This document shows, piece by piece, positions 2,636 through 19,064 of a stretch of DNA of 40,707 bases. The position numbers and the translations under genes were made by a program. The stretch is from contig JAFODZ010000058.1 of assembly GCA_017380435.1 (NCBI GenBank), positions 1-40,707 of the forward strand, given 5' to 3'. Origin of the DNA: Oscillospiraceae bacterium (GTDB lineage: Bacteria; Bacillota; Clostridia; Oscillospirales; Oscillospiraceae). The notes beneath the pieces were generated by a model. That model made no database searches. It was not told the DNA's origin and was given only the letters and a program-made list of their open reading frames with translations. The first letter of the stretch is position 1. Every line of letters begins with the position of its first letter.

Positions 2636-4171
2636 TTATTTCAGTTCCAAAGCCAGCTGCTTGCGATCAACCTTGCCATTCGTATTGATGGGGAAGCTTT
2701 CACGCAAAACGATCTTGCGAGGGATCATATAAGAAGGCAGATATTGCTTTAGCTCTTCCTTGATGGCCAGACCGGTCTTCAGGGCGCTAAGCTGACTGGG
2801 ACTCTGCAGCATTACAAATGCCACAAGGTGGTCGATCTTTTCTTCCTTGCTGACAGGCAGTACCACAGCACGTGCCACATTGGTGACGCGCATCATATTG
2901 TTTTCGATATCTTCAAGCTCAATGCGATAACCGTTCAGTTTCACCTGGAAGTCAATACGACCGCAGAAATAGTAATACTGACCCAGACGATAAACTGCAT
3001 CACCGGTACGATAGCCGCGCTTTACGCAGCCCTCACCCTTCCACTCAAGGAAACGCTGTGCAGTCAAATCAGGCCGCCCAAAATAGCCCGCCGATACGCT
3101 GTCACTGATGATCAGCAGTTCGCCGGTCTCACCTTCGGGCAATTCATTTCCGGCTTCATCCACAATGGCAAAGCGAACTTCATTCAGCGGAATACCAATG
3201 GGGATGGGACGGGTATCTTCCAGCATAGCCTGGGTCACTTCCATCGCCGTTACCAGAACAGTTGCTTCTGTGGGGCCATATGTATTGACAACAGCCCGTC
3301 CGGGGAAACGTGCAAACAGAGTTTCCGTCAGCTTATGGGTCAGCACCTCACCACAGAAAATAAACCGTTCCATTTGCGGCAACAGGTTTGCATCCAATCG
3401 GGGCGAAACCACGCACATCTCTGCAAAAGAGGGTGTGGATACCCACACAGCAATTTGTGAGGTTGCCAGTTTTTCATACAGTTCGGGCAGATTTTCCATC
3501 ATGCCCTTGTCAATGGTATAGAGGGTCTTACCCAGCGCCATGCCCACATAAACCGACACCACGGAAACGTCAAAGGAGTAAGAGATCTGATTCATGATGA
3601 CATCGCCTTTGGCATCTGCCACCCATGCAGAAAACTCCCGATACAGATTATCCAGGTTGGCCTTGCTGATGGGCACACCTTTGGGTTTTCCGGTGCTGCC
3701 GGAGGTGAACAGGATATAGCAGGGGTCCGCATCCTGTACCCAATGAGATGCATCAGGCTTTTGTCCGGCATACTCCGCAAAAATCTGCTGCACTGCCGCA
3801 GTATCCACGCGCTGTCCATACAGGTCTGCCGGGATTTCGCCGCCGGAACAAATATCAGCCAGGTCGATGAAAAGTTTCGGCTTTACGGTATCCAAAATAT
3901 CCCGCACCCGATCGGCAGGCACGGTAATATCCACCGGAACATAGGCGCGGCCTGCCTTCAAAGCACCGTACATACAAGGCAGCATCTCGGTCTGCTTATG
4001 ACCATAGATCACAACCGGTGTGCGATCTTCTGCACCAAACTGCGCCAACAAACATGCCGCAACTGCATCGGAATATGCATCCATTTGCGCAAAGGTCAAC
4101 CGTTCATTCCGGTTGATCAGCGCCACCCGGTCAGTTTTGGCATATTCAGCTATCTTCTCCAGAATAAACAT
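2636..4171 (-). CDS. dltA: D-alanine--D-alanyl carrier protein ligase DltA
   Basis: This adenylate-forming enzyme (511 aa) activates D-alanine with ATP and loads it on DltC in the cytoplasm. Visible motifs are the ATP loop Y-I-L-F-T-S-G-S-T-G-K-P-K-G (152-165), N-T-Y-G-P-T-E (296-302), Y-R-T-G-D (387-391) and the C-terminal catalytic Lys500 in N-T-N-G-K-V-D-R. A GGAGGG site lies 7 nt before the ATG. It follows the transglutaminase-like lipoprotein by 22 nt without a visible terminator, so it is probably read from the promoter at about 5671-5699. No dltX-like small gene fits in that gap. Confidence 0.97.
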   Translation of the reverse strand: MFILEKIAEYAKTDRVALINRNERLTFAQMDAYSDAVAACLLAQFGAEDRTPVVIYGHKQTEMLPCMYGALKAGRAYVPVDITVPADRVRDILDTVKPKLFIDLADICSGGEIPADLYGQRVDTAAVQQIFAEYAGQKPDASHWVQDADPCYILFTSGSTGKPKGVPISKANLDNLYREFSAWVADAKGDVIMNQISYSFDVSVVSVYVGMALGKTLYTIDKGMMENLPELYEKLATSQIAVWVSTPSFAEMCVVSPRLDANLLPQMERFIFCGEVLTHKLTETLFARFPGRAVVNTYGPTEATVLVTAMEVTQAMLEDTRPIPIGIPLNEVRFAIVDEAGNELPEGETGELLIISDSVSAGYFGRPDLTAQRFLEWKGEGCVKRGYRTGDAVYRLGQYYYFCGRIDFQVKLNGYRIELEDIENNMMRVTNVARAVVLPVSKEEKIDHLVAFVMLQSPSQLSALKTGLAIKEELKQYLPSYMIPRKIVLRESFPINTNGKVDRKQLALELK

Positions 4172-4193
4172 TCCGGAACCCTCCTTTTATCCT

Positions 4194-5051
4194 TCAGGGA
4201 CACGCCGGATATTGGGATGCATCCCACTTGTGGTGTGCCTGCATTTCCGCATCGGTTTTCATAAAGCTGCGGAAGGTGTCTCCCTGATGATTTTTACCGT
4301 ACAGGCCGTCAAAATGATAATAACGGCCCTCGTATTCCATAATGACCCAGGCGTGTTCTCCCCACACCTTATTTACCGTATCCCAGCGTTCACCGGTGAC
4401 CATAATGGGCTTGTAGGCCGGATCCAGCCGCTGGAAGAGCAGTGCCACGGTTGTTGCATAATGTTCGCAACTGGCGCGGCGATATTTCAGAAAATACTGA
4501 GTCAGTTCGATCTTTAATGCCTCGGTATAGCCCTGGGACAGGTCAACCGCAACAGCGCGGTAACGGAAGTTATCCGCAACCCACTTGTATACAGATTGAA
4601 GCTGCTTCAGTTTGGTATCCTTTCCGTCGGTAACGCTATCAATGATCTTCTTCAGATCCCGGTCAAGACTGTCAACACCGGTCAGAGTGCCCACTGCGGC
4701 GGATGTGTTATCCTGCAGCGGACGATCGGTATTATTGCCAGAGTTCTCGTTGCCGGTATTCTCGTTGCCGGTGTTTTCGTTGCCGGTATTCTCGTTGCCG
4801 GTGTTTTCGTTGCCGGTGTTCTCGTTGCCGGTGTTCTCATTGCCGGTATTTTCGTTGCCGGTGTTCTCATTGCCGGTATTTTCGTTGCCGGTGTTCTCAT
4901 TGCCGGTGTTCTCGTTGCCGCCACCGTTTTGAACACCGCCCTGTGCGGGATCGTTGCCATCAGGCGTATTCACAGGAGCACAGGCTGCCAGACCCAAAAG
5001 CAAAGAACCCACCAACATCAGCGCCAACAGACGCATAAAGGTTTTACGCAT
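4194..5051 (-). CDS. Transglutaminase-like lipoprotein with NENTG repeat linker
   Basis: The 285-aa protein has a lipoprotein signal peptide with lipobox L-A-A-C (Cys24). A low-complexity linker of twelve 5-residue units follows (residues 46-105: eleven NENTG and one NENSG). The C-terminal domain is of the transglutaminase-like cysteine protease fold, with a candidate triad of Cys195 (in R-A-S-C-E-H-Y), His233 (G-E-H-A-W) and Asp248 (H-F-D-G). It is predicted to be anchored outside the membrane, with the domain held off by a flexible Asn/Glu-rich stalk. It lies 18 nt after an upstream lipoprotein gene and 22 nt before dltA, so it probably belongs to the dlt transcription unit. Its substrate is unknown; action on cell-wall peptides or proteins is inference. 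Confidence 0.85.
   Translation of the reverse strand: MRKTFMRLLALMLVGSLLLGLAACAPVNTPDGNDPAQGGVQNGGGNENTGNENTGNENTGNENTGNENTGNENTGNENTGNENTGNENTGNENTGNENTGNENSGNNTDRPLQDNTSAAVGTLTGVDSLDRDLKKIIDSVTDGKDTKLKQLQSVYKWVADNFRYRAVAVDLSQGYTEALKIELTQYFLKYRRASCEHYATTVALLFQRLDPAYKPIMVTGERWDTVNKVWGEHAWVIMEYEGRYYHFDGLYGKNHQGDTFRSFMKTDAEMQAHHKWDASQYPACP
4735..4914 (-). repeat. 15-bp tandem repeat, 12 units, in frame
   Basis: Twelve back-to-back 15-bp units encode NENTG (the end unit NENSG). Units differ only at third positions (g/a and c/t alternations), so the array is imperfect at DNA level but perfect at protein level over eleven units. Unit gain or loss would change linker length without breaking the frame. 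Confidence 0.97.
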
Positions 5052-5069
5052 AACCGCATTCCCCTTTCT

Positions 5070-5579
5070 TTATTCGAAGGAGCCCTCACCCGTAATGCCA
5101 AAGCTGATAACGGTGTTGCCATCCATCACGAAATACAACATGGGTGCAACGGTATCGGCTGCATCATTGGTCTTGTTGTAGTACAACAATGCGCCGTCTT
5201 CGAAATACTTTTCGCCGTAAGCCTTGATTACATCTTCACGGCTGCTGCCGATCTTAATGCCCTTGCCGGTGGCATAGTCACCGCCAAGCACTTCAACTTC
5301 CAGCACATAATCCTTATCACCATCGGGATAGGTGTACAGGCTGAAGTCTTCGTAGGCATAGATCTTGTCCATGCCATCATAGGCGCAGCTAATGGACTCA
5401 GAGTATTGATAATCACTGCCCAGCTTGTCCAGATAGGGCTTTACGGGCTGATTGCCCTGCATAACAACGCCTTCGATCGTGAGAGAATAGATATTCTCTT
5501 TTTCACCACCGCCGCAGGCAACCAACATGGTCAGCATCAGCGCACACACCAAAACCAATGCAATTTTTGTATGTTTCAT
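5070..5579 (-). CDS. Small lipoprotein of unknown function
   Basis: The 169-aa protein starts with a signal peptide and lipobox L-V-A-C (Cys22), followed by G-G-G and a soluble domain of about 140 residues with many aromatic residues. A segment around K-I-G-S-S-R-E-D-V-I-K-A-Y-G resembles the helix-turn found in small SmpA/BamE-like lipoprotein domains, but I cannot assign a family with confidence. It is the first gene of the unit leading into the transglutaminase lipoprotein (18 nt away) and dltABCD. An in-frame TAA blocks any start upstream, so the ATG at 5579 is the start even though the strong AAGGAGG (5610-5616) lies 30 nt away, across a perfect hairpin. Confidence 0.8.
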   Translation of the reverse strand: MKHTKIALVLVCALMLTMLVACGGGEKENIYSLTIEGVVMQGNQPVKPYLDKLGSDYQYSESISCAYDGMDKIYAYEDFSLYTYPDGDKDYVLEVEVLGGDYATGKGIKIGSSREDVIKAYGEKYFEDGALLYYNKTNDAADTVAPMLYFVMDGNTVISFGITGEGSFE

Positions 5580-13906: not shown

Positions 13907-15016
13907 ATGAAACGATTTTTTCGCAGTTCAAATGTAAAGGCAGCCAGCCGCGCACTATACGCCTTTTGCGTCGCGTGGGCTTTTTTGTTGGTAGTGTCTC
14001 CGGTGCAGCAACCGGCACTGCCCGCCAACGGAGCAGCAACCGAGCTGACGGCACAGCAACAGGCGGCCGCCGACCTTTGTCAAATTGACACCGGGCGACG
14101 GCTGATCCCCTTGGGGCGCACCACCGGCATCAAATTGTATTCCAAGGGCACTATGCTGGTAGGTTTTTCCGATCTGGATTGCTGCGGCTACTCCCCTGCC
14201 CAACAAGCCGGCCTGCGGGAAGGCGACATCATCCTTGCTCTGAACGGCTGCGAGATCGGCAGCAACGAGGCGCTGGCCGCTGCGCTGAAGGCGGCTGAGA
14301 GTCCCTCTATGACCTTGACGGTGCTGCGGGATGACACCACCCGGGAAGTGCGGGTGCGGGCAGTATATGACGAGGCATTGGGATATTACCGCATTGGAGC
14401 TTGGATCCGGGACAGCATTGCGGGCATCGGCACGATTACCTTTGTAGATCCCGACACGGGTGCATTCGGTGCGCTTGGACACGGAATTTGCGACACCGAT
14501 ACCGGCGATCTGGTGGTATTGGACAGCGGCAGCGTGATGGAAAGCATTGTTACCGATGTGATTCCCGGAAAATCCGGCACACCCGGGCAATTGACCGGAC
14601 AGTTTAATTTGAAAGAGGATCAGGGCATTTTGGTAAAAAATACCGACGCGGGGATTTTCGGCAAGTTGGACAATGCCGGATTATATGCAAATCAGGCGGC
14701 GTTGCCATTGGCGGAGGCGGATGAGATCAAGACCGGAGATGCTTATATTTTGTCCAATGTGGATGGCATCACCACCGAACGGTATGCGATTCGGATTGTA
14801 AAAGTGTTCCGAGACAAGGAGAACCGACGGGATATGCTCATCGAGGTCACAGATTCCAAACTGCTGCAGGCCACCGGCGGCATCGTGCAGGGCATGTCAG
14901 GTTCACCCATTATCCAAAACGGCAAACTCATCGGTGCAGTGACCCATGTGCTGGTAAATGATCCGACAAGAGGGTACGGAATATTTATAGAAAACATGCT
15001 GGATGCGGCTGGATAA
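13907..15016 (+). CDS. spoIVB: SpoIVB serine peptidase (S55), sigma-K checkpoint protease
   Basis: The 369-aa protein has an N-terminal membrane/signal segment (about residues 13-32), a PDZ domain (about 75-150, with A-G-L-R-E-G-D-I-I-L) and an S55 peptidase domain. The peptidase has His192 in G-H-G and nucleophile Ser331 in G-M-S-G-S-P. In Bacillus the protein is made in the forespore and secreted into the inter-membrane space, where it triggers pro-sigma-K processing. AAAGGAGG supports the start at 13907. The gene is intact, but its final 39 codons plus terminator are repeated twice downstream. The present 3' end differs from those copies at about 23 of 120 positions with only two amino-acid changes, so the tail was probably brought in by a cassette. 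Confidence 0.95.
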   Translation: MKRFFRSSNVKAASRALYAFCVAWAFLLVVSPVQQPALPANGAATELTAQQQAAADLCQIDTGRRLIPLGRTTGIKLYSKGTMLVGFSDLDCCGYSPAQQAGLREGDIILALNGCEIGSNEALAAALKAAESPSMTLTVLRDDTTREVRVRAVYDEALGYYRIGAWIRDSIAGIGTITFVDPDTGAFGALGHGICDTDTGDLVVLDSGSVMESIVTDVIPGKSGTPGQLTGQFNLKEDQGILVKNTDAGIFGKLDNAGLYANQAALPLAEADEIKTGDAYILSNVDGITTERYAIRIVKVFRDKENRRDMLIEVTDSKLLQATGGIVQGMSGSPIIQNGKLIGAVTHVLVNDPTRGYGIFIENMLDAAG

Positions 15017-15054
15017 ATGATTTAGGCAGGGGCGGTTTGCCCCTGTCTTTTTTT
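14897..15054 (+). repeat. spoIVB 3'-end repeat, copy 1 (in the intact gene)
   Basis: Runs from the catalytic Ser331 codon (TCA, 14897) through the stop (15014-15016) to the terminator CAGGGGC-GGTTT-GCCCCTG plus T-run (15027-15054). Copies 2 and 3 begin at the equivalent serine codon and have the same 39-codon length. Confidence 0.95.
15027..15054 (+). terminator. Terminator of spoIVB (copy 1)
   Basis: CAGGGGC (15027-15033), GGTTT loop, GCCCCTG (15039-15045), then a T-run. Confidence 0.9.
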
Positions 15055-15078
15055 CGCTGTTTTTGATAAAATGAAATT

Positions 15079-15150
15079 GCAACTTCAAGTTGCGAATGTG
15101 CAAAAGCAGGTTGGTAGCATTTATATGCTTTCTGCCTTAAAGTTAAGGCA
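15079..15150 (+). promoter_or_regulatory. Operator/promoter region of cassette XRE gene
   Basis: Three dyads precede the gene. GCAAC-TTCAA-GTTGC (15079-15093) overlaps a TTGCGA -35-like box. AGCAT-TTAT-ATGCT (15116-15129) covers a likely extended -10 (TGGTAGCAT). TGCCTTAA-AG-TTAAGGCA (15133-15150) lies just before the ribosome site. The first dyad and a GTTGGTAG box 17 nt after it recur at the same spacing upstream of the XRE gene at 30589, which points to an autoregulatory operator. Confidence 0.6.
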
Positions 15151-15167
15151 CCAAAGGAGGTGCTCAT

Positions 15168-15707
15168 ATGAGCTTTTCGGAAAATTTAAAACAAATTAGA
15201 AAGGAACATCATTTATCACAGGAAGAACTGGCTGAACTTTTGGATGTCAGCCGACAGGCTGTTTCCAAATGGGAACAAGACCAGGGATACCCGGAAGTGG
15301 AAAAACTATTGTTGCTTTCCAAGAAATTAAACATTTCTTTGGATACGCTTATGTCCAATGAGATCGGCTACGATTGTGGCTCAAACTGCACAAGCGTAAC
15401 GGGCTCAATTACTATTACATCTCCTCATGAGAATGTAATTGCAAACTGCTACAAGGTAGTAGCATCCGGTAAAATGCGAGGGGGAAAAGCTTCCCCACAG
15501 TATGCATTGTTTGGTATGGATAGAGGTGGCTCCAGTTTTTGGGGAGAACCGACTACGTTTCTGGGGTGGTATGCCAGCGAAGAACAGATATCAAAAGAAA
15601 TTGCACAGATCTACAACGCAATTTCAAAAGGAATTCCGACTTATACGCTGCAATTTAGCGCAAAAACGCAGCGCCGTTGGGCGAGTATAAAGATGGTTGA
15701 GGAATGA
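15168..15707 (+). CDS. XRE-family regulator with C-terminal sensor-like domain (cassette cargo)
   Basis: The 179-aa protein has an N-terminal XRE helix-turn-helix (residues 6-61, recognition helix S-R-Q-A-V-S-K-W-E at 28-36). The C-terminal region of about 110 residues has G-S-I-T-I-T-S-P-H-E-N, F-W-G-E-P-T-T-F-L-G-W-Y and R-R-W-A-S-I-K-M motifs; I know this type of tail from Firmicutes XRE proteins but can give it no function. AAAGGAGG lies 7 nt before the ATG. The coding sequence is visibly more A/T-rich than spoIVB. Its stop codon is 7 nt from the shared 27-nt motif, so the gene fills the space between two spoIVB tail copies exactly. Confidence 0.88.
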   Translation: MSFSENLKQIRKEHHLSQEELAELLDVSRQAVSKWEQDQGYPEVEKLLLLSKKLNISLDTLMSNEIGYDCGSNCTSVTGSITITSPHENVIANCYKVVASGKMRGGKASPQYALFGMDRGGSSFWGEPTTFLGWYASEEQISKEIAQIYNAISKGIPTYTLQFSAKTQRRWASIKMVEE

Positions 15708-15714
15708 CAAAAAA

Positions 15715-15741
15715 TGTTGTCCCTAATGGCAATCACTTGTG
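15715..15741 (+). other. Candidate recombination site, copy 1 (27-nt cassette end)
   Basis: TGTTGTCCCTAATG followed by GCAATCACTTGTG, abutting the AGC serine codon of spoIVB tail copy 2. It is identical to the site at 16436 except at two positions. It has no similarity to the sequence preceding Ser331 in intact spoIVB, so it belongs to the inserted unit. Confidence 0.55.
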
Positions 15742-15898
15742 AGCGGCAGTCCGATTATTCAAGACGGCAAACTGGTGGGTGCGGTGACCCACGTGCTTGT
15801 GAATGACCCGACGAGAGGGTACGGGATTTTTATAGAAAACATGCTGGATGCAGCCGGATAAATGATTTAGACAGGGGCGGTATGCCTCTGTCTTTTTC
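15742..15898 (+). repeat. spoIVB 3'-end repeat, copy 2 (displaced remnant)
   Basis: An open frame of 39 codons, S-G-S-P-I-I-Q-D-G through D-A-A-G, with stop at 15859-15861, then terminator GACAGGGGC-GGTAT-GCCTCTGTC with T-run (15870-15898). It has no start codon or 5' part, so it is a gene remnant. It differs from copy 3 at about 10 of 120 positions, all synonymous. Confidence 0.93.
15870..15898 (+). terminator. Terminator after spoIVB tail copy 2
   Basis: GACAGGGGC (15870-15878) pairs with GCCTCTGTC (15884-15892, one G-T pair), followed by TTTTT. Confidence 0.8.
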
Positions 15899-15940
15899 AT
15901 GCGAACCATGCTATAATTAGGAAAATGGGGGAGGGTTCGT

Positions 15941-16432
15941 ATGAATAGATTGGCTGAAGTGGCACAGCAGGAGGCTTGTAAATCTTTCCACGGGAAAATC
16001 ATGGGTACAGAATCGAATATCCATGAAATTGTTAAACCGTTTCCGAAATGGAGTGTGGAAGAGGCCGATGCCCTGTGGTGTGCTGCATTTGTCCTTTATT
16101 GCTGCAAAAAAGCAGGTATGTGTATTCCATATAAGCCGACAGAGTGCTCCCTGTCCTTGGCGGCTTGTCCGGCATGGGAGGAATGGGCAAAGGCAGACCA
16201 ACGTATAACTTATGTGTCGGCAAATGACGAACCGCAATCCGGAGACATAGTCATCTTCGACCATGTGTTTTGCGATTCGCCACACGATCATATGGGCATA
16301 GTGATTAAGGTAAAAAAGGATATTCTTTTGGTTGCTGAAGGTAATTTTAACAATGTATCATGTGTTGTTGAACGAAAAAGAGATACGCATATTCGCTGTT
16401 ACATCAGAATACCGGTGGATTTTAGGTATTAA
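15941..16432 (+). CDS. CHAP-domain (cysteine peptidase/amidase) protein, cassette cargo
   Basis: The 163-aa protein matches the CHAP/NlpC-like papain fold. Cys47 lies in L-W-C-A-A-F-V at the start of a helix, His117 in D-H-M-G-I-V-I, and a polar residue follows in A-E-G-N (E133/N135). These folds cleave peptidoglycan peptides or amide bonds. There is no signal peptide or wall-binding domain, so it would act in the cytoplasm or need lysis or another route out. An extended -10 (TGCTATAAT near 15911) and a GGGGGAGGG ribosome site precede it. Its stop codon is 3 nt from the 27-nt terminal motif. It is A/T-richer than its neighbours. Confidence 0.8.
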   Translation: MNRLAEVAQQEACKSFHGKIMGTESNIHEIVKPFPKWSVEEADALWCAAFVLYCCKKAGMCIPYKPTECSLSLAACPAWEEWAKADQRITYVSANDEPQSGDIVIFDHVFCDSPHDHMGIVIKVKKDILLVAEGNFNNVSCVVERKRDTHIRCYIRIPVDFRY

Positions 16433-16435
16433 AAC

Positions 16436-16462
16436 TGTTGTCCCTAATGACAATCACTCGTG
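16436..16462 (+). other. Candidate recombination site, copy 2 (27-nt cassette end)
   Basis: TGTTGTCCCTAATG followed by ACAATCACTCGTG, abutting the AGC codon of spoIVB tail copy 3. It matches the 15715 site at 25 of 27 positions. Confidence 0.55.
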
Positions 16463-16616
16463 AGCGGCAGTCCGATTATTCAAGACGGCAAACTGGTGGG
16501 TGCGGTGACCCACGTGCTGGTAAATGATCCCACGCGAGGATACGGGATTTTTATCGAAAATATGCTGGATGCGGCGGGATAAACGATTTGACAGGGGCGA
16601 ATGCCCCTGTTATTTT
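16463..16616 (+). repeat. spoIVB 3'-end repeat, copy 3 (probable original chromosomal tail)
   Basis: 39 codons plus stop (16580-16582), encoding the same peptide as copy 2, followed by terminator ACAGGGGC-GAAT-GCCCCTGT (16591-16610) with a T-rich tail. In a serial-insertion model this is the original end of spoIVB. Confidence 0.93.
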
Positions 16617-16752: not shown

Positions 16753-17343
16753 ATGACATTCGGAGAAAAAATAAAAGAAGCCAGACGCAACGCCAGACTG
16801 TCTCAGGATGAATTGGCTATGAAGCTCAGCGTATCCAGATCCGCCATCGCAAAGTGGGAATCCGACAAAGGAATGCCCGATATCCAGAATCTTAAGAGTC
16901 TGGCTGCGGTTTTAAATATCAGTTTGGATTATTTGCTGAATGACGGAACAAAGTTGGATTTGACGGTAACCCGGGAGCCTATTGACCTGAAGCAATACGG
17001 AAAGGGTATGAAAAAGGTTCTGAAAGATCGGATCGTTCGCAAGAAGTACCCTGATGCAGAAATCATGACCTTGCTGGCAGAAGAAAAACTGACTGCGCCG
17101 GAACATACCGTCAATTTTTTGACCGGAATGCTGACATTACTTTTTAATGTATTTCCTTTCGCCAAAGCGTTAAACAATTTGGACAAAGAGTTCTACCTTG
17201 TGAACAGCAAGGGCAGACAATACCTTGTCATGATCACAAACGAATTTCTGGAATCCCGCGAATTGGCAGAGGCAAAAAACGAACGGAAATTTCACGTAGG
17301 AAAGTACAAGTTTACCAACTGCGGCCCCATTGTTAATGCATAA
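16753..17343 (+). CDS. XRE-family regulator
   Basis: The 196-aa protein has an XRE helix-turn-helix (residues 5-60, recognition helix S-R-S-A-I-A-K-W-E) and a C-terminal region of about 130 residues. That region contains a hydrophobic stretch (V-N-F-L-T-G-M-L-T-L-L-F-N-V-F near 118-132) and an F-Y-L-V-N-S-K-G-R-Q-Y-L-V segment. I do not recognise the C-terminal family. GAGGAGG precedes the ATG. A dyad in its promoter suggests autoregulation. It is the first gene after the spoIVB array and may head a unit with the GrpB-like and methyltransferase genes. Confidence 0.85.
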   Translation: MTFGEKIKEARRNARLSQDELAMKLSVSRSAIAKWESDKGMPDIQNLKSLAAVLNISLDYLLNDGTKLDLTVTREPIDLKQYGKGMKKVLKDRIVRKKYPDAEIMTLLAEEKLTAPEHTVNFLTGMLTLLFNVFPFAKALNNLDKEFYLVNSKGRQYLVMITNEFLESRELAEAKNERKFHVGKYKFTNCGPIVNA

Positions 17344-17392
17344 ATAATATGTGCTGCAATGCGTTCTCAGCAAATGTTTGGCGGTGATTGAT

Positions 17393-17911
17393 ATGCGTAC
17401 AACCAAAGTAATTGTTCTCCCCTATGACGAAGCCTGGAGTTCTGATTTTGAAACAATCAAAGATGAACTCGAACACGCCATCGGAGATTTTATAGTTGGG
17501 ATCGAACACGTGGGAAGCACCTCGGTGGAAGGAATGTCTGCAAAACCTTGCATTGACATCGACGTAATCATCCCGGATTATGCGGTCTTTGATGCGGTTG
17601 TTGCCGGACTTCGAACCATTGGCTATATCCACGAGGGAGACTTGGGCATCAAGGGTCGGGAAGCCTTCAAGTATACAGACAAGCCCCATTTGAAAACACA
17701 TCATCTATATGTATGCCCGCAGGATTCCGCGGAACTGCATCGGCACATCACATTCCGCGATTTTTTACGAAGCAACCCGGAGGCGGTGCAGCAATACAGC
17801 CGGGTCAAAGAATCGGCCGCGCGGCTTTTTCCGGATGACATTGAAAAATATATTGCATATAAATCACCCTGCATCGAAGCACTGTATCAGTTATGCGGCC
17901 TGCAGGATTGA
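17393..17911 (+). CDS. GrpB/UPF0157-family nucleotidyltransferase-like protein
   Basis: The 172-aa protein has the family signature G-S-T-S-V-E-G-M...K-P-C-I-D-I-D-V (residues 41-58), in which the glycine/serine turn and the two aspartates correspond to a nucleotidyltransferase-fold active site. A later R-D-F-L-R-S-N-P-E segment and C-terminal helices are also typical. The physiological role of the family is not known. The start at 17393 follows a weak GGCGGTG site. It lies 12 nt before the methyltransferase gene, so the two are probably co-transcribed. Confidence 0.85.
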   Translation: MRTTKVIVLPYDEAWSSDFETIKDELEHAIGDFIVGIEHVGSTSVEGMSAKPCIDIDVIIPDYAVFDAVVAGLRTIGYIHEGDLGIKGREAFKYTDKPHLKTHHLYVCPQDSAELHRHITFRDFLRSNPEAVQQYSRVKESAARLFPDDIEKYIAYKSPCIEALYQLCGLQD

Positions 17912-17923
17912 CAGAGGTATACC

Positions 17924-18550
17924 ATGACAGATCACGAAATGAATTGGGATAACCGGCTGCAAATCACCACAGCCGGCCTGGATGATTCCAGCGCCGATCC
18001 GTACCGGTTTCGGTATGAACCCACCCCCTATTGCGTTTTGGAGCGTTTGCTGGACAGCGGACTCATCCGCAAGGATGATACGGTTCTGGACTACGGTTGC
18101 GGAAAAGGACGCGTGGATTTTTTTCTGTCTGCGCAAGCACAGGCAAACACCATCGGAATTGAATATGATGACCGGATTTATCGGGATGCAACCGAAAATC
18201 AAAAAACGGCTGTTGCAGGTGCAAATACTGTCTTTATCCTGATGCGAGCAGAGGCATACACCATCCCCCCTGCTGTCAACCGATGTTATTTCTTCAACCC
18301 CTTTTCGGTGGAGATCCTGCACAAAGTGCTGGCAAGGATTCTGGAATCGTATTACGAAAATCCGCGGGAAATTTTTTTATTCTTTTACTATCCCTCAGAG
18401 GAATATATTTCCTATTTGATGACGGTAAGCGAGCTGGAATTTTACGGCGAGATTCCTTGCGGAGATTTATTCGAAGAACCGGACAAGCGGGAACGGATTA
18501 TGATTTTTTCATTGCCCGGTTATGATGGTTTGGAAGAAACCGAAGGTTAA
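17924..18550 (+). CDS. SAM-dependent methyltransferase
   Basis: The 208-aa protein has Rossmann methyltransferase motif I, V-L-D-Y-G-C-G-K-G (54-62), then I-G-I-E-Y-D (motif II acidic residue). The motif IV position has F-F-N-P-F in place of the usual D/N-P-P-Y, as seen in a group of small-molecule or protein methyltransferases of Firmicutes. The substrate is unknown. AGAGG precedes the ATG. It is the second gene after the GrpB-like gene. Confidence 0.82.
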   Translation: MTDHEMNWDNRLQITTAGLDDSSADPYRFRYEPTPYCVLERLLDSGLIRKDDTVLDYGCGKGRVDFFLSAQAQANTIGIEYDDRIYRDATENQKTAVAGANTVFILMRAEAYTIPPAVNRCYFFNPFSVEILHKVLARILESYYENPREIFLFFYYPSEEYISYLMTVSELEFYGEIPCGDLFEEPDKRERIMIFSLPGYDGLEETEG

Positions 18551-18603
18551 AGCGGGCTCTACTTCCGCTAAACCAACGGTCGAGAGAGGTAAACTTCAGG
18601 TCG

Positions 18604-18651
18604 GTTGAGTGTTTTTGCGGCAAATGTTAAAGTAAAACCGTAAAACTCAAC
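18604..18651 (+). promoter_or_regulatory. Promoter with long imperfect hairpin before XRE gene 18669
   Basis: GTTGAGT (18604-18610) pairs with ACTCAAC (18645-18651). TTTGCGG and CCGTAAA extend the stem after a 2-nt bulge. A possible promoter, TTGAGT-17-TAAAGT (18605-18633), lies inside the dyad. Confidence 0.45.
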
Positions 18652-18668
18652 TACGAAAGGAAACAAAC

Positions 18669-19064
18669 ATGATGAAAAAGACACTTGGCACTATGATTGC
18701 AGATTTGAGAAAGCAACACGGAATGACCCAATTGGAACTGGCTGAGAAAATGAATGTTACCGATAAAGCCGTATCTAAGTGGGAACGAGACTTATCTTGT
18801 CCGGATATCAATTCTCTTCCAAAGCTGGCTGAGATTCTCGGCGTATCCGTGGAGGAATTGATGCAGGTTAAAACAGAAGCAGGATCACCCACAAGCAAGG
18901 CATCTGAAATTCTCGCCATCGCACCGAAGGCGATTGCGATGGCAATGGGTATCGCGGTAACTGCCTTGACAATTCTGGACGCACTGGATATGAAATCCGG
19001 TATGATTATGCTGGGCATCGGTCTTGCTTGCGTAGGAATCTCTTTGATGAATGAGAAGAAATAA
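18669..19064 (+). CDS. XRE-family regulator with C-terminal membrane helices
   Basis: The 131-aa protein has an N-terminal XRE domain (residues 8-63, with T-D-K-A-V-S-K-W-E as recognition helix), a short linker and two predicted membrane helices (about residues 85-103 and 109-126). Membrane-tethered XRE proteins of this kind are common in Clostridia. AAAGGAA precedes the ATG at the right spacing. It ends just before a strong bidirectional terminator and is convergent with the ABC-GNAT gene. Confidence 0.85.
   Translation: MMKKTLGTMIADLRKQHGMTQLELAEKMNVTDKAVSKWERDLSCPDINSLPKLAEILGVSVEELMQVKTEAGSPTSKASEILAIAPKAIAMAMGIAVTALTILDALDMKSGMIMLGIGLACVGISLMNEKK

Follow-up and report, generated by a model that had tools for sequence, protein, structure and literature searches.

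The 3' end of spoIVB, a sporulation protease gene, is present three times in a 40,707-nucleotide contig of an Oscillospiraceae bacterium (JAFODZ010000058.1, assembly GCA_017380435.1; the whole of this stretch is called the window below), and two compact single-gene units lie between the copies. It seems likely that these units are two recombinase-less cassettes, inserted one after the other at a TG dinucleotide of spoIVB through a trans-acting large serine recombinase. The parts of the array are given here, and numbers preceded by L, G or C throughout the text are our own handles for loci, genomes and contigs.

13907 to 15016, forward strand: spoIVB, intact (PF05580, TIGR02860), with core TG at 14895-14896 and tail 1 from the Ser codon at 14897-15016
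14895 to 15739, forward strand: putative cassette unit 1, 845 bp by core-to-core spacing (tail 1, terminator, XRE gene, one attachment arm)
15025 to 15054, forward strand: terminator-like hairpin and T run 3' of tail 1, read from the sequence
15168 to 15707, forward strand: XRE-family regulator, cargo of unit 1 (HTH_3, E 6e-17)
15715 to 15738, forward strand: 24-nt putative attachment arm P, right end of unit 1, by motif comparison (TGTTGTCCCTAATGGCAATCACTT)
15739 to 15861, forward strand: displaced spoIVB tail 2, by sequence comparison; core TG at 15740-15741, with GTG replacing ATG
15740 to 16460, forward strand: putative cassette unit 2, 721 bp by core-to-core spacing (tail 2, terminator, CHAP gene, one attachment arm)
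15941 to 16432, forward strand: CHAP-domain protein, cargo of unit 2 (PF05257, E 7e-9)
16436 to 16459, forward strand: 24-nt putative attachment arm P, right end of unit 2, by motif comparison (TGTTGTCCCTAATGACAATCACTC)
16460 to 16582, forward strand: displaced spoIVB tail 3, by sequence comparison; core TG at 16461-16462

Each copy of the tail comprises 40 codons plus a terminator (hairpin and T run); the copy at 14894-15016 is the true end of spoIVB and the other two are displaced. The gene was identified by profile (PF05580, E 5e-81; TIGR02860, 340 bits against a cutoff of 305), and a repeat finder recovered a 159-nt family with spacings of 845 and 721. Repeat finder, coordinates and profile matches thus bear out the first-pass annotation of the window, which had described three spoIVB tails separated by single-gene XRE and CHAP units. 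Identity is 99/123 between tails 1 and 2, 98/123 between tails 1 and 3 and 113/123 between tails 2 and 3, the latter two being 61/63 identical across a 63-nt stretch; the idea of tail 2 as a clear mosaic was set aside, its 3' part being indecisive. The two copies of P, whose type in the window is CCTAATGACAATCACTC, are 22/24 identical. Within three mismatches, P occurs at these two places only in the window's own genome (estimated to be 59% complete), and the best match in the rest of the window carries eight mismatches. The TG common to all three copies lies directly 5' of the Ser codon. A Pfam scan of the cargo found no recombinase in the window units, and Rfam found two tRNAs and nothing else in the window.

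By motif position, the Ser that follows the core TG corresponds to Ser378 of Bacillus subtilis SpoIVB, whose active-site residues are given in the accessible part of PMC12502668 as His236, Asp363, Ser378 and Thr393; Thr393-His394-Val395, in the same numbering, also falls within the tail. The TG core divides the protease between these reported catalytic residues, with His236 and Asp363 on the head side and Ser378 and Thr393 on the tail side.

The motif lies next to spoIVB tails in other genomes as well. A scan of 400 genomes of the family for P, with up to three mismatches, gave 15 places in 13 genomes, the window's own included, and a spoIVB tail, whole or damaged, stands immediately behind P at 11 of the 15; no reversed-pattern control appeared among the matches listed. 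When 345 genomes of the order were scanned for P plus the core with one mismatch, 10 places were found in 9 genomes, the 8 besides our own belonging to five other families and 7 of these 8 having the tail. Within the genus, 12 of 41 genomes (own included) have tail pieces beyond the intact gene or on other contigs, a count made by reading the match list, in which the G373 case may be one gene split between contigs. The P-tail junction is beyond chance, since it recurs in other genera and families. TG occupies tail nt 2-3 in 40 of 40 junctions whose tail aligns from its first residue, partly by selection, as unaligned starts such as L130 are omitted from this set. Redundant sub-loci and most genus loci that were not refetched are left out of the junction listing, the head comparison and the tail-integrity counts, and L297 (on the same contig as L038) is left out of the cassette bounding, junction and cassette-end comparisons. 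Judged by eye, P holds a small inverted repeat, which is lost in some of the listed junctions; covariation in the short palindrome adjoining the core was weighed in the same way and set aside.

In 11 other records, a P-type motif and a spoIVB tail end an element with large serine recombinase genes. Three such genes are found in tandem in ten of them (L199-L202, L204-L206, L211, G660 and G690), and the eleventh, a 4-kb contig (L215) found via the third recombinase, shows at least that gene followed by P and tail. Seven of the nine tail hits in a viral collection (L199, L200, L201, L202, L204, L205 and L206) consist of the recombinase triplet, a P-type motif and a headless spoIVB tail, and the fecal record MT836038 (L211) has the same order of triplet, P and tail. 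Among 394 genomes of the order, a close third recombinase was found in G660 and G690 alone, and both show the triplet arrangement. All three proteins of the 36.9-kb record L204 have Resolvase, Recombinase and zinc-ribbon domains. Third-position recombinases are 46-62% identical among themselves and at most 32% to the first and second ones, which agrees with the grouping by position that the accessible text of PMC4701971 reports for streptococcal triplets. In 84 of 250 family genomes there are remoter relatives of this third recombinase, none above 36% identity among the matches listed. Judging from these records, the P motif is one arm of a predicted serine-recombinase attachment site. The triplet nearest to the window by P is that of L201, whose P starts with TGTTGTCCCTAATG as in the window. 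In L130 (G067:C131, 1-860), the window's P type stands 0.5 kb beyond the end encoding the C terminus of a serine recombinase; a truncated XRE cassette resembling that of the window was also noticed there, right after this recombinase end.

The first-pass annotation had proposed site-specific insertion at the active-site codons, and the junctions agree with this to the nucleotide. An empty site in Firmicutes CAG:176 (L052) can be compared with the occupied site of L211: on the tail side 149 of 150 nt match, the sole difference being nt 1, with 97.8% identity over 3 kb, and upstream of the junction only 7 of 60 do. One element is also found in different spoIVB alleles in L200 and L205 (300/300 before the junction, 49/72 after it), and another in L202, L206 and L215 (295-298/300 before, 50-63/72 after), the sequences parting within a few nt past the junction. 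The L052/L211 pair and the identical element ends in different alleles place the crossover at the TG that precedes the codon for the catalytic serine.

In G660 and G690 the spoIVB head stops at GGIVQGM and is followed by an inverted left arm, P', and an orphan tail stands behind P on a contig separate from the head; because of this separation, we can only infer that one element cuts spoIVB in each genome. Inverted attachment arms around a very short core are clear in G690, where GAGTGTGTCA and AGGGACAACA are shared exactly between P and P', and partial in G660; the window units have one arm only. After the orphan tail of G660 comes spo0A (TIGR02875), and L115 has the order spoIVB, cassette, P, tail, spo0A. 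Across 87 loci, spo0A is within 500 bp of spoIVB in 9, further away in 14, out of order in one and missing from the available DNA in 63. Two side observations concern these elements. Another serine recombinase gene, possibly a recombinase-bearing cassette, lies directly behind the displaced tail and terminator of the triplet element in L200 (6584-7873). In L214 (5500-5808), a recombinase of the triplet clade is followed by both arms about 80 nt apart, with sequence other than spoIVB behind P, and this may be a secondary site or another target.

Small units like those of the window, each holding one gene or a few, are found in many gut-dwelling relatives. We bounded 25 of them, from 514 to 4022 bp (median 985), each with a tail at its start and a tail junction at its end, the left boundary being the gene tail and not a left arm. 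They hold 38 open reading frames (ORFs), of which 28 were scanned against Pfam and 9 of these 28 had no family at the thresholds used; no recombinase domain was found in the 28, nor in the remaining ORFs by reading. Cargo domains include XRE, CHAP, DUF1275, GH32, SLFN_AlbA_2, Fic, Phd/YefM, cyclase, PHP, AraC-type and DUF4279, together with a weak TetR-type match, and one bounded cassette (L104, 11507-13473) contains a Septu pair (PADLOC: PtuA, E 8e-147; PtuB, E 3e-86). Genes similar to the window XRE were found near spoIVB tails in L045, L094 and L130. An assumption that all cargo lies on one strand was wrong, several units holding cargo on the opposite strand. In addition, nine cassettes with CTACTTGACATC-type P (L054, L113, L300-L304, L309 and L310) have a right-end stretch of about 210 nt in common regardless of cargo. 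It has TGTCGAAAA...TTTTCGACA arms and, some 110 nt ahead of P, an inverted sequence that resembles P by eye. This stretch could be a regulatory or helper-binding region.

Cassette number and cargo vary among relatives, as had been anticipated. L038 has one cassette and L044, 88.6% identical to it, has none, its host ORF ending about 35 bp past spoIVB; the spoIVB heads of L060 and L076 are 91.5% identical and their cassettes differ. Conversely, one cassette, with an XRE-like and a membrane protein by reading, follows the spoIVB heads in L054, L076 and L311 and a P in L301, its matches being 91.7-94.7% identical to L054 while the L054 head is only 37.8-38.3% identical in amino acids to those of L076, L311 and L301. 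The start of a Phd-type cassette is likewise 83.5% identical between L104 and L116, whose heads are 38% identical. The cassette end and P of L094 and L328 are identical over 107/107 nt and their tails match at 77/117, as insertion at TG before different resident tails predicts; L329 and L333, from different families, share 98% over 99 nt and 23/24 of P, with tails at 91/117. Compared across 125 of the 135 head loci, the tails of L054/L311 have a third-position identity of 0.69, which ranks 9 among 7566 far pairs, and those of L104/L116 one of 0.59 (rank 191), with 0.75 in their 5' half.

Cassettes share the exact nucleotide at which they end in P, and as they begin with a spoIVB tail, spoIVB stays whole. 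At loci with displaced tails, the head-attached tail is intact in 27 of 27 cases and the displaced tails in 20 of 35, where heads were called by a GGIVQG-like motif, so that heads damaged there would escape, and displaced tails were detected by similarity, so that fully decayed ones escape the count. These figures uphold the earlier proposal that the tail at the left end of a unit keeps the gene whole.

Under the mechanism that we propose, each cassette of the window has its single cargo gene between a spoIVB tail and an attachment arm, and a cassette circle, with P joined to its own tail, would recombine at TG with an intact spoIVB. The incoming tail would become the new end of the gene and the resident tail would be pushed downstream behind P, the newest unit therefore adjoining spoIVB and tail 3 of the window being the oldest resident. 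The recombinase would be supplied by a visiting triplet element, displaced tails would decay over time, and homologous recombination between tails would remove units and mix tails. The cassette reaction itself is one that we infer.

Several observations weigh against this mechanism. A reaction between a P-tail site and a head-tail site departs from the attP x attB scheme of the textbooks. For the window itself, no close relative with an empty site turned up (the best head is 50% identical); the viral collection yielded neither a triplet nor an autonomous element of the window's P type, and two viral records (L325 and L327) match the P-plus-core pattern without any spoIVB tail. Over all loci, intact tails number 130 of 132 when attached to a head, 32 of 36 directly behind P and 3 of 21 among pieces without a clear P, so tails directly behind P are mostly intact and decay is found chiefly in the last class. 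The tails of L054/L076, L076/L311 and L054/L301 have third-position identities of 0.46-0.51 (far-pair mean, 0.40), and in these same three comparisons most cargo windows are more than 90% identical. The statement that each unit supplies a whole replacement tail consequently stands in that a tail is found at the start of the unit, but not for these three of five shared-cassette comparisons. With cargo alike and tails near background, tails must also exchange independently; such mixed travel of tail and cargo may reflect site-specific entry followed by homologous recombination between the direct-repeat tails. Finally, the first-pass annotation proposed looking across the genome for a recombinase gene whose own element ends in the motif. 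Such genes exist as triplets on other elements, but no cognate was found in 26 cassette-bearing genomes, where the spoIVB-type third-recombinase query gave one match (E 1e-70) of just 33% identity. Genome bins often lose mobile elements, which makes this absence weak evidence, and 15 of the 26 genomes are less than 90% complete or of unstated completeness.

The missing cognate also keeps alive a rival explanation, in which ordinary homologous recombination through the tails of about 120 bp spreads the cassettes and a recombinase made just the first P-tail junctions long ago. Some shared cargo with unrelated tails, and the patchiness of the tails, fit it too. We regard it as unlikely, however, considering that L094 and L328 share all available cassette nucleotides as far as P and differ from tail nt 6 onwards, with no P-linked piece of tail, that a single 45-nt tail start is found behind three different P sequences (L199, L303 and L304), and that the arm is conserved across unrelated cargo. 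Besides, the displaced tail of L060 has a 27-nt stretch of its relative L076 which the head-attached tail of L060 lacks, although the L076 tail, itself with a cassette, need not be native.

Less plausible still is that the units are immobile remnants of triplet elements which lost their recombinases and left end in situ, with spoIVB repaired from an outside source. Triplet elements do have P as their right end, and the right-end stretch common to nine cassettes of one P type whatever their cargo would suit such an origin; on the other hand, the same small cassettes are found behind unrelated spoIVB heads and also in different families, and when 17 window and array sequences were scanned for the left arm, two hits with a single mismatch came up, one far upstream of spoIVB (the pattern fits one arm type only). 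That the spoIVB end was duplicated locally in tandem, or that the array is an assembly artifact, is barely credible, although direct repeats in one contig and several contig ends at tails might point that way: the two genes between the copies are unrelated, spoIVB itself does not contain the P motif, and many separate assemblies show this structure with different cargo.

Other movers were considered and rejected. A tyrosine recombinase or XerCD was dropped once the triplets appeared: of 55 matches in 15 genomes none was seen beside an array, and one (G402) is on the same contig as an array, about 48 kb away, the contig having been checked for only part of the 55. A single large serine recombinase present in every genome was rejected as it is absent from 3 of 15. 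Single recombinases at the spoIVB of G042 (L120) and in the L024 remnant involve other codons or fragments and were taken to be separate events. In L120 (G042:C58, about 3448-5286), a different single large serine recombinase gene abuts a spoIVB broken near the Thr-His-Val codons, some 50 nt past the TG core, with the rest of a tail on another contig (L121, G042:C47, about 3809), and the L024 remnant beside spoIVB is related to this G042 recombinase. Two further genes were noticed near spoIVB: L099 (2800-3771), where a second tail is lacking, has a tyrosine-recombinase-like ORF about 180 nt past the gene, and in L091 (5005-6720) a single large serine recombinase gene is found upstream of the spoIVB match, at a distance of a few kb. 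No tail was seen with the serine recombinase genes of G403 (L319 and L320).

Past its last tail (16753-19064), the window holds genes for two further XRE regulators and a GrpB protein and a methyltransferase-like gene, all without tails, which could be older cassettes with lost boundaries. The window spoIVB is 42-49% identical to spoIVB of the assigned genus (55% in one partial match). A second spoIVB in the same bin (G000:C54, L113) also has an array and, unlike the window copy, groups with the assigned genus, so that the window contig may be mis-binned or the bin mixed.

No report of spoIVB as an integration site or cassette dock was found in the literature searched, preprints and most subscription papers lying outside its coverage; the accessible text of PMC5894183 concerns spoIVB expression only. 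The earlier claim that no system of this kind had been described therefore holds for spoIVB, but close architectural analogs have been published (PMC3146451, PMC4701971 and PMC6222049, each seen in part). Streptococcal integrative and conjugative elements (ICEs) carry three tandem large serine integrases, grouping by position, at one element end and disrupt mutT, traG or hsdM with direct repeats of 2-8 bp (PMC4701971). The spoIVB triplets share with them the domain make-up, the tandem position at one end and the disruption of the target gene; they differ in that the target is spoIVB and that small cassettes keep it whole, and the accessible text of that paper describes no recombinase-less cassettes, tail carriage or tandem arrays. 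Ten relatives have the serine-integrase triplet and the window units do not, which makes the latter at most a non-autonomous derivative of a triplet element.

The units of our arrays stand in tandem between attachment sites and carry neither recombinase nor transfer genes (in a scan of 28 of their 38 ORFs), as expected of arrays of cis-mobilizable elements. The ssrA islands of Dehalococcoides are similarly tandem beside one single-copy gene and bounded by 3'-end repeats, with a serine recombinase, and 15 of 31 lack an integration module and were read as possible cis-mobilizable elements (PMC3146451, accessible part). There, the repeat is 20 bp of an RNA gene and the recombinase is the CcrB-like DsiB with a small partner; here, it is 120 bp of coding sequence with the catalytic serine, in units of 0.5-4 kb with a one-sided attachment arm. 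Staphylococcal cassette chromosome (SCC) and enterococcal cassette chromosome elements use large serine recombinases (Ccr) to enter the 3' part of rlmH with variable cargo, the enterococcal ones measuring 21-78 kb each and having multiple attR sites in 16 of 32 cases (PMC6222049, accessible part). The spoIVB system resembles SCC in its large serine recombinase, its insertion in the 3' part of a conserved gene and its variable cargo. However, the insertion is in spoIVB and not rlmH, and two third recombinases scanned with the NCBIfam models for CcrA, CcrB and CcrC reached 52-79 bits against cutoffs of 700-900. The architecture is thus known from SCC, ssrA islands and streptococcal triplets, and the spoIVB dock with small, tail-carrying cassettes appears to be new.

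Integrons are arrays of small units with diverse cargo whose recombinase lies outside the cassette, and they rely on a tyrosine recombinase, folded attC sites and an adjacent integrase gene. The spoIVB arrays are like them in their small recombinase-less units with diverse cargo, and unlike them in that no IntI-type integrase was seen beside the arrays among the 55 tyrosine-recombinase matches of 15 genomes. A broader proposal, which we offer tentatively as possible and short of probable, is that we are dealing with a serine-recombinase counterpart of the integron. In it, spoIVB would be the fixed entry site, triplet integrases would join a P-tail circle to the intact gene in a reaction previously unseen, each entry would renew the catalytic end of the protease, and regulators, enzymes and phage-defense genes would move among families of gut Clostridia. 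This raises the question of whether a serine-integrase triplet can join an attR-type circle to attB.

If true, little-cultured sporeformers of the gut would have a cassette-collecting system docked at a sporulation gene and carrying defense genes, with units small enough that island finders may miss them. Integration would either break spoIVB, in the case of a full element, or give it a new active-site end, in the case of a cassette, and gene capture would thereby be tied to sporulation.

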